Of a DNA stretch of 48,577 nt, positions 8,682 through 13,708 are shown one piece after another. The notes beneath the pieces are model-generated. The model did no database searches, was not told the origin of the DNA, and saw only the letters and a list, made by a program, of their open reading frames with translations. Source of the DNA: an uncultured Prevotellaceae bacterium. Lineage in GTDB: Bacteria; Bacteroidota; Bacteroidia; Bacteroidales; Bacteroidaceae. How positions within the stretch are numbered: position 1 is the first letter of the stretch; each line of letters opens with the position of its first letter. The position numbers and the translations under genes are program-made. The DNA lies in NCBI GenBank assembly GCA_902767775.1, contig CACXIP010000035.1, forward strand, positions 1-48,577. The letters are read 5' to 3'.

Positions 8682-9425
8682 TTAACGGCGGGAAAAGGAG
8701 AGCGGTAGTTCCAGACCGTTGTGCTCCAGCAAGGACTGGTTGCGCAATACCTCCTCGGTGGTGCCGACGGCGACGACGCCCTTGTCGGCGAGAAGGACGA
8801 CACGGGAACAAGTGTCATAGATGAAATCAAGGTCGTGGCTGGCGATGAGTTTGGCACAAGGCAGACTGCTCAGCACCTGAATGAGCCGACGGCGGTTGCG
8901 CGGATCCAAACCCACCGTGGGTTCGTCGAGGAGCATCAGCTGACTTCCCATGGCAAGGACGGTGGCGATGCTGGCGAGTTTTTTCTCCCCGCCCGACAGT
9001 TTGTAGACCTGTTTGTCACGGCTGTCCTCCAGCCCCACCTGCCACAGGGCATCCATCACCATCCTCTCCGTCTCCTCACGGCTATAGCCATAATTGCGCG
9101 GAGCAAATGCCACATCCTCGTAGATGGTGGTCATGAAGAGTTGGCTCTCCGAATCCTGAAACACATAACCCATCTGCTGACGGATTCTCCTCAGGTTGTT
9201 TTTGTTCAGCGGCTGACCGGCAACATTGACATTGCCTTCCTGCAACGGCAGCAGACCGCCGATGATTTTCATCAGCGTGCTCTTCCCTACTCCATTGGCT
9301 CCCACCAATCCCACGTTCTCGCCCTCAGCGACGTGGATGCTGATGTTGCTCAGCACCTGAAAGGCTGGTTTGCCCCTCTCGTTCTCATAGGCAAAGGAAA
9401 GATTCTTGATCTCAAGTGCATTCAT
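8682..9425 (-). CDS. cbiO: ECF-type nickel/cobalt transporter ATPase CbiO
   Basis: A 247-residue cytoplasmic ABC ATPase that powers the ECF metal transporter. Walker A is GANGVGKST (42-50), the Q-loop is VFQDSESQLF (~88-97), the ABC signature is LSGGEKK (143-149), Walker B with catalytic Glu is LMLLDEPT (163-170), and the switch His lies in ASHD. I chose ATG 9425 (MNALEIKNL) because it overlaps the cbiQ stop as ATGA, the usual translational coupling; an upstream in-frame ATG at 9458 would lie inside cbiQ. It is the last gene of the lar/ECF operon. It could serve either nickel or cobalt; the adjacent lar genes favour nickel. Confidence 0.9.
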   Translation of the reverse strand: MNALEIKNLSFAYENERGKPAFQVLSNISIHVAEGENVGLVGANGVGKSTLMKIIGGLLPLQEGNVNVAGQPLNKNNLRRIRQQMGYVFQDSESQLFMTTIYEDVAFAPRNYGYSREETERMVMDALWQVGLEDSRDKQVYKLSGGEKKLASIATVLAMGSQLMLLDEPTVGLDPRNRRRLIQVLSSLPCAKLIASHDLDFIYDTCSRVVLLADKGVVAVGTTEEVLRNQSLLEHNGLELPLSFSRR

Positions 9426-10189
9426 AGGCATCTGATAACGACAAACAACATCATCCAAATAAAGGCATACAGATAATCGAACATTCTCGCAGGTTTCTTG
9501 TTGCGGGGCATGAACTCACCCTGAAAACCACGGAGCTGCATACTCCCATAGACCATCTCCGCCCTGTCGACACTGCGCAGGAGGAGCTGTCCCACCATAC
9601 TGCCCCATACCCGGAAAGTGACTCCCCGCTGTCCCGGCGCCCTCATGGAATAGGCGGCGCGCAGCCGACCCGTCTCCTTGAGCAGCAACATCAGATAGCG
9701 ATAGGCCAGCATCAGTATGGTGACCAGCACTGCCGGCACACGCAGACACCTGAGCGCATGGCAGATGTCGTCCATGGTGGTGGTGACAACCAACAGGTAG
9801 GCGGCAGACATGGAAAACACGCCCTTGAGCATCAGCGTGAGCATGGAGACCATGCCTCCCGTGACAGTAATTCCGCTGATGGAGAACATGGGATGGCGGT
9901 CGAAGAGCGGATTGGCCAAACCGAGCAGGCCGACGAGCAAGAGCAACAGCCAAATCCTACGGCCCATCAGACGCAAGGACACATCGCCCATTAGGAAGAG
10001 CACAATCAGGTAAACACCCATCACCAGCACTCCCGGCAGGTCATATTTGTTGAAGGAGAGCAGCACCACGAGATAGCCCAGTGTGACAAGCAACTTGCTC
10101 ACCGGATGAATGGCCTGCAGCCACCCGCCGGCCGCTGCTTCACGGTCGATGGCATGTAGTTGCATCATCGCACGGTCTATCCTGTTCAT
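9422..10189 (-). CDS. cbiQ: ECF-type nickel/cobalt transporter transmembrane subunit CbiQ
   Basis: A 255-residue integral membrane T-component linking the ATPase to the substrate-binding CbiM. Several hydrophobic helices are visible (about 35-55, 53-72, 77-95, 103-130, 150-170, 235-255). The cytoplasmic coupling region has RAAYSMRAPGQRG and DRAEMVYGSMQLRGFQG, with Arg-Gly signatures characteristic of CbiQ/EcfT. It begins with an ATGA overlap with cbiM (10186-10189) and ends with the same overlap with cbiO, so the three subunits are translationally coupled. Confidence 0.9.
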   Translation of the reverse strand: MNRIDRAMMQLHAIDREAAAGGWLQAIHPVSKLLVTLGYLVVLLSFNKYDLPGVLVMGVYLIVLFLMGDVSLRLMGRRIWLLLLLVGLLGLANPLFDRHPMFSISGITVTGGMVSMLTLMLKGVFSMSAAYLLVVTTTMDDICHALRCLRVPAVLVTILMLAYRYLMLLLKETGRLRAAYSMRAPGQRGVTFRVWGSMVGQLLLRSVDRAEMVYGSMQLRGFQGEFMPRNKKPARMFDYLYAFIWMMLFVVIRCL

Positions 10190-11172
10190 CTCGCTGCCTT
10201 TTTCATTTTCTTAATGACCACGCAGACTGCCACGCAGACCACCAGCACCAACAATGCGCCCACGATGCCTGAGAATGAGGTGCCCATGCTCCCTTCTCCA
10301 CCCAGGAAATCATAGTCGGGAAGCAGAGCCAGCCGCTCCTGTATCTGTGCCGCCCAGAGATGCAAGGATGAGGCAGACTCCAATTCAGTGCTTCCCGTCA
10401 CCTTCGCTATCGACCACTCTAATCCGTCGGGATGGGAGGAGGCAAACAACGAGAGGAAGCCGCCCGTCACTGCCGCCGTCGCCGCAATGACAGCCACCAC
10501 TGCCGAGGTCTTCATCCGCCCGCCCTCTTGCTGCCCATAGCCATGGAGCAACTGCGGACGTGACTGGAATACAAACAGCAGCACAGCCGACGTAATCAGT
10601 CCCTCTACCAGTCCGATGACCAGATGAATGGGTTGCATAAAACCAAGGAACACCGCAAAGGGGAGTTCGGTGATGCCGGATGCCAGTGTCTCCAGCGTGA
10701 CGGAGAAAGCACCCAACTGCAGTGCCAGCACACAGCCTGTCAGCGAGGCTGCGACTATGCGTTTCCGGGTCATCCCTCCACGCATGAAAGCGCTCCAGAT
10801 GAGATACCCCACGAAGCACCCATAGAAGCCCATGTTCCACATGTTGCACCCCAACGCCATCAGTCCGCCGTCGGCAAACAGCAGGCATTGGATGACAAGC
10901 ACGGCTGTCATGGTGAGGAAACCCGCCTCTGGTCCGAGCAGTGCGCTCAGCATCATGCCTCCCGTGAGATGCCCCGACGAACCCGTTCCCGGGATGGAGA
11001 AATTAATCATCTGGGCGGCAAAGACAAAAGCCCCCATCACACCCATGAGCGGCACCTTGTGGTTGAGGTCGGCTGCCCTGACTTTTTTGAGCGAATAACC
11101 TGCGGCTACTGCCGAACAGGCGTACATGGTTCCTGCCACTGCGGTGGAAACCAAAGCGTCCGCCATGTGCAT
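10186..11172 (-). CDS. cbiM: ECF-type nickel/cobalt transporter substrate subunit CbiM fused to CbiN-like domain
   Basis: A 328-residue membrane protein. The N-terminus MHMADALVS carries His2, the metal-ligating residue that must be exposed at the N-terminus in CbiM/NikM, so this start is secure. Residues ~1-215 are the CbiM domain (GSSGHLTGGMMLSALLGPEAG is its conserved core). Residues ~225-328 are a CbiN/NikN-like module with two helices flanking an external segment with PDGLEWS and LPDYDF. It imports Ni2+ or Co2+. Metal preference is not decided by sequence, but the gene starts 3 bp after the LarC-LarE fusion, so nickel for the pincer cofactor is the likely cargo. Confidence 0.9.
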   Translation of the reverse strand: MHMADALVSTAVAGTMYACSAVAAGYSLKKVRAADLNHKVPLMGVMGAFVFAAQMINFSIPGTGSSGHLTGGMMLSALLGPEAGFLTMTAVLVIQCLLFADGGLMALGCNMWNMGFYGCFVGYLIWSAFMRGGMTRKRIVAASLTGCVLALQLGAFSVTLETLASGITELPFAVFLGFMQPIHLVIGLVEGLITSAVLLFVFQSRPQLLHGYGQQEGGRMKTSAVVAVIAATAAVTGGFLSLFASSHPDGLEWSIAKVTGSTELESASSLHLWAAQIQERLALLPDYDFLGGEGSMGTSFSGIVGALLVLVVCVAVCVVIKKMKKAAR

Positions 11173-11175
11173 AGG

Positions 11176-12957
11176 CTATTTCCTTTCTTTGATATGAATG
11201 TCCATACTTCCACTGCGGAAACCCTCCAGGTCGAGGGTGATATAGGCGAAGCCCATCGCCTTGAGCCTCTCCACCACCTCTTCGCGTATCAGGAGCAGTT
11301 TTCCCATATCGCCGCCGTCTGTCTCCAAGCGCGCCACATCGCCATGGATGCGCAGTCGCACATTGCGGAAGCCCTGTTCACGCAACCATGTCTCTGCCTC
11401 GTCCACACGGCTCATCATGTCGTAGTCCAAGGGGGTGTTGTAAGGGAAACGGGTTGCCATACAGGGTGTGGATGGTCTCTCTGCCACCGAGATGCCCATC
11501 TCCTGTGCCATCCGGCGAACCTCTCCCTTGGTGATGCCCAACTCCGCCAAAGGACTCAGAATGCCCAGTTCTCTCAAAGCCCTGATGCCCGGACGGTATG
11601 CGTGCAGGTCATCCTCATTGGTTCCCTCTATCACACAGGAGGCGCCCAGTTCTGCTGCCTTCTCCTGCAACTTGCCAAAGAGGTGGCGCTTGCAGCGATA
11701 GCAGCGGTCGACGGGGTTCATGCGGATGCCGGCATCCTCCAATTCGTCGATGTGGATAACCAGATGCTGCGCTCCGGCTTCCTCCGCCACCCTGCGAGCG
11801 ATGTCCACGTCGCCATTGGGATGCATGCGGGTGTGCATGGTGACGGCGGTCACCTTGGTGCCTTTCTCCTTGGCTGCCTCACAGCTCAGGGCAAGAAGCA
11901 GACTGCTGTCCACGCCTCCGGAGAATGCCACCATGATGTCGTTTGCTGCCAATTCAAGCAGGCGACCCTTCAGGGCAAGCATTTTCTCTTTATAGTCTGA
12001 CAAGTCCGACTGGTCCGACAAGTCCGACTGGTCTGACTGCTCCGACTGCTCCGACTGCCCAGCTGTATCCTCTATCAACATGGCCCTGAGAAAACTGGGC
12101 TGACTGTATTCGCGTTTTCCTGCACCAAGACCTGTCTTCACGATTCTGAAACTGTCTGGGAGTTTGTCGGACGTGCGGATGGCTGCCACGATGGCGGCAC
12201 CCGTTGGCGTGACATATTCTCCCTTGGAGGATGTGATGGTCAGGTTCAGCCCGTGGGCTTCGGCTATGTTGACCACGGCAGGAACGGGAACAGGCAGCAC
12301 CCCATGCTGACAGCGCACGGTGCCTGTGCCCTCATAGAGCATCGGCACCACCACATCGGTGATGCCGAGGTTGTCGAGACATACGGCAACGGCAGCAATA
12401 TCGACGATGGAGTCCACCGCTCCCACTTCATGGAAATGCACCTCCTCTACGGGCAGGCCGTGAGCCTTGCTCTCTGCCTCTGCGATGATTTGGAATATCC
12501 TGACCGCCACTCTCTTTGCCCTGTCGGTCAGTGCGCTTCCATTCAATATCTCCACAATGTCGGCCAATCCCCTGTGCTCATGACTATGGCTATGGGAATG
12601 GCTGTGGCTGTGCGAATGTGAATGGCTGTGACGATGGGTGTGCGGATGGGTATGCTCGTGGTCGTGGTGACGATGAAACCAATTGAGGAAGGGCAACCAG
12701 TGGTGATGGTGGTGTCCATCGCCGTAGAGGTATTCCATGTCATGGTCGTGGTTGTCGTGCTCCAGGATGACATTGAAGTCGCACGCCTCAATCCCTGACT
12801 TGAAGACACGGGTGACGCGCGTCTCAAAACCAGTGAGCGGAAGGCTTTTCAAAGCTTTGTCGAGCACGTCGGCATCCGCTCCCAAATCAAGCAGTGCAGC
12901 CACGGTCATGTCGCCGCTGATGCCTGAATAGCATTCCAGATACAGTTTCTTACTCAT
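11176..12957 (-). CDS. LarC1-LarE fusion for nickel-pincer cofactor synthesis, LarC2 domain missing
   Basis: A 593-residue cytoplasmic protein combining two steps of nickel-pincer nucleotide synthesis. Residues 1-296 match LarC1 (MSKKLYLECYSGISGDM, VHFHEVGAVDSIVDI, GEYVTPTGAAI), with a very His-rich insert (67-128, HS repeats) for nickel binding. A Ser/Asp/Gln linker follows (299-320). Residues ~322-593 are LarE, the sulfur-transfer PP-loop enzyme: SGGVDSS (346-352), Cys419 and Cys422 in RCYRC, and Cys499 in TPCMATR. Three Cys suggest the iron-sulfur type of LarE rather than the single-Cys sacrificial type. The LarC2 part, which follows LarC1 in normal LarC and binds CTP, is absent. It overlaps larB by 8 bp and is followed 3 bp later by cbiM. 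Domain identity is confident; activity of a LarC lacking LarC2 is an open question. Confidence 0.9.
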   Translation of the reverse strand: MSKKLYLECYSGISGDMTVAALLDLGADADVLDKALKSLPLTGFETRVTRVFKSGIEACDFNVILEHDNHDHDMEYLYGDGHHHHHWLPFLNWFHRHHDHEHTHPHTHRHSHSHSHSHSHSHSHSHEHRGLADIVEILNGSALTDRAKRVAVRIFQIIAEAESKAHGLPVEEVHFHEVGAVDSIVDIAAVAVCLDNLGITDVVVPMLYEGTGTVRCQHGVLPVPVPAVVNIAEAHGLNLTITSSKGEYVTPTGAAIVAAIRTSDKLPDSFRIVKTGLGAGKREYSQPSFLRAMLIEDTAGQSEQSEQSDQSDLSDQSDLSDYKEKMLALKGRLLELAANDIMVAFSGGVDSSLLLALSCEAAKEKGTKVTAVTMHTRMHPNGDVDIARRVAEEAGAQHLVIHIDELEDAGIRMNPVDRCYRCKRHLFGKLQEKAAELGASCVIEGTNEDDLHAYRPGIRALRELGILSPLAELGITKGEVRRMAQEMGISVAERPSTPCMATRFPYNTPLDYDMMSRVDEAETWLREQGFRNVRLRIHGDVARLETDGGDMGKLLLIREEVVERLKAMGFAYITLDLEGFRSGSMDIHIKERK

Positions 12958-13708
12958 GGTTGCCTCCTTTGCAAATGGCCAAATTGATTTGTGAAGCCAT
13001 AAAACCGGCTCCGAATCCGTTGTCGATATTCAAAGTTGCCACACCGTTGGCACATGAGTTGAGCATCGTGAGCAAGGCGGACAGTCCGTGAAAACTGGCT
13101 CCGTAACCCACTGAGGTGGGCACTGCCAGCACGGGTTTGCTGACCAGTCCTCCTATCACGCTCGCCAACGCGCCTTCCATACCGGCAACCGCCACCACAC
13201 AGTTGGCGTGTTGTATATCCTCCAGACTTGCCAACAGACGGTGCAGTCCGCTCACGCCCACATCATAGACGCGCAGCACCTTGCTGCCCATGAACTCGGC
13301 CGTCTGTGCCGCCTCCTCAGCAACAGGCATGTCGGCAGAACCGGCACTGCACACGCACACCAGTCCGCTGTGCGGCTTGTCCTCCTTCTCTACTTTCAGA
13401 ATCCGGGATACGGGGTCGTAGACGGCTTCATGGAAGCGGGTCTGGATGATATCCGCCTGATGCTGGGTGGCTCGCGTGCCAAGCACCTCACCTTCCTCGG
13501 CATAGATGTGCTCATACAAGCTCAGCAGATGCTCGTCTGCCTTGCCGCCACAGAACACCACCTCGGCGGAGCCTGTGCGCAACTTGCGGTGAACGTCGAC
13601 TTTGCCGAATCCCAAATCCTCGAAAGGCTTGCGTCGGAAGAATGCCTCTGCTTCTTCCACAGACATCGTCCCTGCTTTTACAGCAAGCAATACATCATGT
13701 TCATTCAT
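12950..13708 (-). CDS. larB: Pyridinium-3,5-biscarboxylic acid mononucleotide synthase LarB
   Basis: A 252-residue cytoplasmic enzyme that carboxylates nicotinic acid adenine dinucleotide and releases AMP, the first step of nickel-pincer nucleotide synthesis. The C-terminal half is PurE-like (VCSAGSADMPVAEEAAQTAEF, VAGMEGALASVIGGLV, PTSVGYGASFHGLSALLTMLNSC). Cys219 in LNSCANGVATLNIDNGFGAG corresponds to the cysteine that attacks the pyridine ring in characterised LarB. Length is normal. It is the first gene of the lar/ECF cluster: the LarC-LarE fusion starts inside its 3' end. No convincing promoter is visible in the 49-bp gap to the upstream glucanase gene, so read-through is possible. Confidence 0.93.
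   Translation of the reverse strand: MNEHDVLLAVKAGTMSVEEAEAFFRRKPFEDLGFGKVDVHRKLRTGSAEVVFCGGKADEHLLSLYEHIYAEEGEVLGTRATQHQADIIQTRFHEAVYDPVSRILKVEKEDKPHSGLVCVCSAGSADMPVAEEAAQTAEFMGSKVLRVYDVGVSGLHRLLASLEDIQHANCVVAVAGMEGALASVIGGLVSKPVLAVPTSVGYGASFHGLSALLTMLNSCANGVATLNIDNGFGAGFMASQINLAICKGGNHE

Follow-up and report, generated by a model that had tools for sequence, protein, structure and literature searches.

A LarC1-LarE fusion without LarC2 in an uncultured Prevotellaceae bacterium points to an in-frame deletion at a repeat array

The nickel-pincer cofactor genes of an uncultured Prevotellaceae bacterium include one gene in which LarC1 is joined to LarE, with no LarC2 domain between them. LarC2 is the CTP-binding part of LarC. 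We consider it probable that this fusion arose when part of an ordinary larB-larC-larE-cbiMNQO operon was deleted in frame at a repeat array, in this lineage specifically; the event would have left LarC1 and LarE intact and removed nickel insertion by the CTP route. Judged from sequence comparisons, the evidence points to such a deletion over a selected two-enzyme design. The gene was found in a stretch of 48,577 nucleotides that was analysed as a whole and is hereafter called the window. What may be new here is the LarC1-LarE fusion without LarC2; genomes that carry larB, larC, and larE without larA are already on record, according to the available text of PMC11796402.

The fused gene occupies the minus strand, on which one intact frame runs from position 12957 to 11176, and the plus strand reading of the same interval contains stops (Table 1). 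The encoded protein consists of LarC1, a short Ser/Asp/Gln linker, and LarE. An earlier note, made from the letters of the DNA alone, had described 296 residues of LarC1 followed by LarE, and this layout was borne out by family profiles and by a solved structure. The NCBIfam profile nickel_LarC1 (TIGR00299) matched residues 129-294 with 195 bits (cut-off 90), and the LarE profile (TIGR00268) matched residues 338-585 with 279 bits (cut-off 150). The Pfam profile Ni_insertion (PF01969) was matched by residues 5-310 over only positions 1-243 of its 375 in the protein search, and over positions 1-274 in the DNA search. Likewise, the solved LarC chain 12bi_D (414 aa) could be aligned with the fusion only up to its residue 266. 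The solved LarE structures 5udq and 6b2o matched the LarE part with an E-value of about 1e-47. The SGGxDS PP-loop, the CxxC-C cysteines, and the family score together suggest that its LarE is of the [4Fe-4S] type.

Both halves of the protein appear well preserved. None of the 36 columns of the conserved LarC1 core deviates in the fusion, this core being defined by 95% conservation among 62 LarC1 domains accompanied by LarC2. The AlphaFold2 model of LarC1 had a mean pLDDT of 80.9, with a single segment below 50 that corresponds to residues 79-126 of the His-rich loop, and its final strand stops at residue 295, immediately ahead of the linker. When this model was compared with solved structures by fold, none matched at E<=0.001, the best E-value being 1.2. 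His-rich loops resembling that of the fusion were seen in most of the aligned relatives.

Table 1 Features of the fused gene and of the surrounding operon (positions in the window; residues of the fused protein)
Feature	Residues	Positions	Strand	Description and basis
larC1-larE fused gene		11176..12957	-	593 aa plus stop, one frame
LarC1 domain	1-296	12070..12957	-	TIGR00299; complete through last predicted strand (287-295)
LarE domain	321-593	11179..11997	-	TIGR00268; solved LarE structures
Interdomain linker		11998..12069	-	Encodes Ser/Asp/Gln repeat; replaces larC2 and the start codon of larE; comparison with L031-L035
9-bp tandem array		12004..12057	.	Consensus GTCCGACTG, 6 copies; Tandem Repeats Finder
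His-rich loop of LarC1	65-130	12568..12765	-	26 His; presumed metal-binding
SGGVDS PP-loop of LarE, ATP site	346-351	11905..11922	-	Motif per available text of PMC9283937
LarE CxxC	419-422	11692..11703	-	With Cys499 (11461-11463) makes up the CxxC-C cysteines of the [4Fe-4S] LarE type; motif per available text of PMC9283937
larB, first nickel-pincer cofactor enzyme, 252 aa		12950..13708	-	NCBIfam NF033503, 279 bits (cut-off 175)
cbiMN, substrate-specific part of ECF-type nickel/cobalt importer		10186..11172	-	PF01891, 186 bits; PF13190, 99 bits
cbiQ, importer membrane part		9422..10189	-	TIGR02454, 127 bits (cut-off 112)
cbiO, importer ATPase		8682..9431	-	PF00005, 115 bits; chosen ATG start (listed ORF 8682-9458)

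The genomic context of the fusion is that of a nickel-pincer operon. The minus-strand genes larB, fused gene, cbiMN, cbiQ, and cbiO stand almost end to end, and the LarB of the pathway is present. A scan of a species-genome collection with the fusion, seeded by six short peptide patterns, returned 56 loci, of which the nearest five (L031-L035, from Bacteroidaceae or Prevotellaceae bins) share 75-85% identity in LarC1. All five encode a full LarC made of both C1 and C2. At four of them (L031, L032, L033, and L035) larB precedes larC and a separate larE follows directly, while at L034 larC is directly followed by cbiMN and LarE is encoded on another contig. Compared with these loci, the fusion locus is missing larC2 and the ATG of larE, and has the 9-bp array instead. 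In a tree of 69 LarC1 domains, the fusion paired with L031 (support 99/87), and this pair was nested in the clade of full-length Bacteroidaceae LarC (99/98). As regards the importer, matches to cbiMN and cbiQ within the fetched flanks were restricted to Bacteroidaceae loci among the 56. The genes beyond the operon vary among L031-L035 and around window positions 8682-13708, a pattern that would fit a cassette transferred in one piece.

LarC2 was searched for both within the fusion and throughout the genome, a draft of 4.64 Mb in 73 contigs with completeness of 100 and contamination of 1.56. Neither Pfam and NCBIfam profiles nor alignment with the solved chain revealed LarC2 inside the fusion protein, and PF01969 occurs at one place in the genome. 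A 25-row LarC2 profile, built from 25 loci, scored 18 candidates in the genome without a single match at E<=1. It was positive at E<=2e-61 in seven of seven controls, namely the genomes of L031-L035, L041, and L049, which are themselves rows of that profile. A leave-out retest was therefore made with 18 rows: the seven left-out loci scored 180-192 bits, and nothing was found on either strand of the window nor in the six LarC2-less loci described below. Hence, these searches detected the CTP-binding LarC2 of a LarC neither in the chain nor elsewhere in the genome. The earlier note had claimed that the fusion is devoid of LarC2 and had proposed a whole-genome search for a stand-alone copy; the former claim held and the latter search, positive in the controls, came back empty, which speaks against its option that LarC2 is encoded elsewhere. 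It had also named in advance two results that would overturn it, a separate larC2 gene or a LarC2 hidden within the fusion, and neither was found, LarC2 having gone undetected in both fusion and genome.

The junction itself offers a clue to how the fusion may have arisen. The array is in frame and lies exactly where LarC1 and LarE meet. When the genome was searched for three consecutive units, each strand gave 84 matches, the unit being near-palindromic, and the reversed control gave 0; many of the matches overlap within one array. The 15 array loci that were read correspond to 10 distinct places, two of which have no covering ORF of at least 100 aa and several others of which are near ORF ends. 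One array is located well inside a 339-aa ORF, identified as GldL (TIGR03513, 117.7 bits, cut-off 68.3; PF22827), and is in frame, so the genome does contain in-frame arrays of this type. The sequence of the relatives was read at the LarC1/LarC2 linker and ahead of larE, and no array was present in these stretches, so a step of recombination between two arrays is not seen. Arrays of the form (GTCSGACNN)n occur at positions 12004-12057 of the window, at L125:2095-2137, and dispersed genome-wide. The window also has many further arrays of short period that stand outside its main ORFs.

From the full LarC of the relatives, and from the array that stands where larC2 and the ATG of larE would be expected, we infer an array-mediated in-frame deletion. 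The ancestral state would have been an ordinary larB-larC-larE-cbiMNQO operon with a full LarC, from which a single deletion would have taken out the LarC2 domain, the stop of larC, and the start codon of larE. The most likely mechanism would be recombination or slippage at the dispersed 9-bp array, the unit length of which would preserve the reading frame across the deletion. It might be argued that the fusion is instead an artefact of assembly, with a real larC2 lost from between two flanking copies of the array. The position of the junction exactly on a repeat of the dispersed type, the fragmentation of the draft into 73 contigs, and the size of the larC2 piece (about 450 bases, removable by a length filter) would all be compatible with this explanation. 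However, the array spans about 60 bases, which is generally below the usual read length, the frame is intact over 593 codons, the same type of array is in frame in GldL of this very genome, and LarC1-only genes exist in other lineages. Taking both sides together, we regard an assembly artefact as improbable.

Fusions of this kind appear to be rare. In a draw of genomes from the phylum, PF01969 was matched by 25 out of 395, of which 24 were over the cut-off; among these, the match extends to profile positions 374-375 in 21 and to position 360 in two, and only in the fusion genome does it stop at 274. The family and genus draws each yielded two carriers (out of 399 and 398 genomes, respectively), and in both cases the carrier other than the fusion genome has a full-length frame. 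The one from the genus draw (G969) agrees with the L032 genome in its number of contigs and in the lengths of its frames (488 and 303 aa), and the coordinates fit. Hence, the comparison of layouts across Bacteroidetes that the earlier note had suggested brought up no second LarC1-LarE fusion in the phylum, family, and genus draws, which, being samples of larger groups next to a scan seeded by six peptide patterns, could have missed rarer carriers. Among plasmid records, 100 matched the fusion, all of them below 60% identity; of the eight matches listed, one had a coverage above 80%, and in it larC and larE are annotated as separate genes. The literature searched described, in the text available, neither a LarC1-LarE fusion nor a LarC that lacks LarC2, which is weak evidence of novelty given that key papers fall outside that search.

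The loss of LarC2 would have consequences for the chemistry of the pathway. As described in the available text of PMC11796402, the characterised LarC cytidinylylates P2TMN with CTP and inserts nickel, while LarE adenylylates its substrate with ATP; LarE activates carboxyl groups, and the group cytidinylylated by LarC is a phosphate. Since LarC2 is missing, nickel insertion by the characterised CTP-dependent route should fail in this organism. In the chimera LarC1, which presumably holds substrate and nickel, is intact, as is the LarE of [4Fe-4S] type, and P2TMN is probably still made by LarB together with a LarE that would remain active. On the sequence data, it is simplest to assume that the deletion happened recently and that the pathway is still producing P2TMN.

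The earlier note had also offered the option that LarE supplies the nucleotide-binding role. LarE, or some other resident nucleotide-binding protein, would then have taken over the role of CTP binding, making the fusion a channeling enzyme whose single chain inserts both sulfur and nickel. That LarC1 and LarE both score intact on a single chain, and that LarE already uses ATP for adenylylation, would be in line with this. Nevertheless, the idea is weakened by five LarC1-only loci of other lineages in which LarC1 is unfused to LarE, and the two enzymes act on different chemical groups, as noted above. In addition, the changes in LarE on the fusion branch amounted to 8, against 17 and 7, and thus show no excess. 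A deletion at the repeat array fits better, and we consider a takeover by LarE very improbable.

The loci lacking LarC2 in other lineages provide a further perspective. LarC2 was found behind LarC1 in 50 of the 56 loci and was absent in six. One of the six (L068) was excluded from the LarC1-only count, as its contig ends 185 bases past the gene; the remaining five comprise one locus from Coriobacteriaceae (L058) and four from Lachnospiraceae (L073, L074, L076, and L078). At these five, a stop closes LarC1, which is not fused to LarE, and the next genes are larB or unrelated ORFs; the LarC2 profile found no LarC2 in the respective genomes. The conserved LarC1 core was free of deviations in L068, L074, L076, and L078, and had one deviation each in L058 and L073. 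On the tree of 69 domains, the distribution of LarC2-less proteins takes six changes, at least five of them by well-supported branches, and five when L068 is left out. In a draw from the family of the L073 genome, PF01969 was present in 253 of 397 genomes. Fourteen of the 253, the L073 genome included, displayed a single match whose E-value, from 1e-60 to 1e-95, is of the size that LarC1-only proteins give, as read from the score table rather than from layouts, and 12 more had two or three matches with the best one in that range; such scores may also stem from genes that are split, duplicated, or cut by a contig end. In one Lachnospiraceae bin, a frame encoding a LarE-LarB fusion (L074:7914-9548) is followed by the gene for LarC1 without LarC2.

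These loci raise the possibility that LarC1 can function as an enzyme by itself. If so, LarC2 would have been dropped by several unrelated lineages, that of the fusion included, which would have kept LarC1 and would make a P2TMN-derived cofactor for a protein other than LarA. LarC1, acting alone or with an unrelated helper, would yield a cofactor with nickel inserted without CTP, with another metal, or with no metal, and the deletion would have been tolerated because LarC2 was dispensable. The recurrence of LarC1-only loci supports such an activity of LarC1, as do their nearly unchanged cores, the number of changes on the tree, the 14 single-match genomes, and the five Bacteroidaceae relatives that likewise have no LarA. 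On the other hand, this explanation draws on sequence, and the characterised LarC needs CTP (PMC11796402, available text). Moreover, the L073 genome (G790) has LarB and LarC1 but yielded neither LarC2 nor a LarE over the cut-off, and the L058 genome has only a partial match to LarE (positions 4-190 of 259); both may reflect decay or gaps. A single weak PF01969 match, in turn, could come from a gene cut by a contig end. We hold the proposal that LarC1 works by itself tentatively, as a rather unlikely one, both for the fusion and as a general account of these lineages. The alternative to it is that the pathway may be in early decay.

The fused domains display signs of past constraint. Pairwise dN/dS between the fusion and L032 was about 0.10 for LarC1 (dS 0.96) and about 0.12 for LarE (dS 1.5), but the branch to the window spans time before the deletion, hence this conservation is no proof of function afterwards. 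Relaxed selection on LarC1 was considered, with a mixed outcome: a first branch count gave 14 for the fusion versus 8 and 5, and a stricter one, based on control genes and on either two or three outgroups, arrived at 6, 5, and 0. The stricter count yielded a Fisher p of 0.15 against larB, cbiMN, cbiQ, and cbiO pooled, and a nominal p of 0.014 against cbiMN alone.

The protein that would use the cofactor was also searched for. In the fusion genome the best match to LarA (PF09861) reached 16.7 bits, under the cut-off of 23.3, and belongs to a DUF362 protein; no LarA, and with it no complete lactate-racemase system, was found in the genome. Across 14 genomes, two PF09861 hits were over the cut-off, and both were DUF362 proteins. 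In a survey cited by PMC11796402 (available text), about 15% of genomes have larB, larE, and larC without larA, so the cofactor would have another user there. The fusion genome (G000) has DUF362 matches at C11:104331-105020, C7:44706-45353, and C8:91150-91581, those on C11 and C7 belonging to family proteins of 354 and 382 aa, one of which is the best Lar_N hit. These two proteins contain an H-x9-K stretch (H.MGG.GG.LKN) resembling the one that binds the cofactor in LarA, and are candidate users of the cofactor. DUF362 and LarA are members of the same Pfam clan, according to the available text of PMC11770544. DUF362 as a cofactor user tied to lar is not supported, since it is common where lar is rare (57 of 100 same-genus genomes, versus lar in 2 of 398) and missing at E<=1e-10 from 4 of the 14 lar-bearing genomes.

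The fusion raises a testable question, namely whether the cofactor can be produced without LarC2. Natural LarC1 proteins without LarC2 provide material to address the role of LarC1 itself, and whether CTP is always needed. Furthermore, this case suggests how dispersed arrays, if their unit length is a multiple of three, can remove a domain and join neighbouring operon genes into one protein.

The fusion can be compared with several known systems. With the LarC cyclometallase (PF01969, TIGR00299) of Lactiplantibacillus plantarum and Moorella thermoacetica it shares LarC1, the His-rich loop, and the conserved core; unlike the characterised LarC, no LarC2 was found for it, and CTP-dependent insertion cannot be assumed. 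Its LarE has the SGGxDS and CxxC-C motifs in common with the [4Fe-4S]-type LarE of Thermotoga maritima (PMC9283937, available text), yet it has lost its own start codon and is placed C-terminal to LarC1. The Bacteroidaceae larB-larC-larE-cbiMNQO operons (L031, L032, L033, and L035) have the same gene order and 65-88% protein identity over larB, larC1, larE, and cbiMN (larB of L031 and L032 being partial), whereas they encode a full LarC and a separate LarE, neither of which the fusion locus has. The LarC1-only genes of Lachnospiraceae and Coriobacteriaceae resemble the fusion in that no LarC2 was found in their genomes, but they are unfused to LarE and stand elsewhere on the tree. On Lacticaseibacillus plasmids, larC1 and larC2 are annotated separately and side by side, in contrast to the fusion genome, in which no larC2 was found, and separately annotated larC1 and larC2 are also described for Anaerobutyricum in the available text of PMC7702098. 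These separately encoded systems agree with the fusion in that LarC1 and LarC2 are not required to form one chain.
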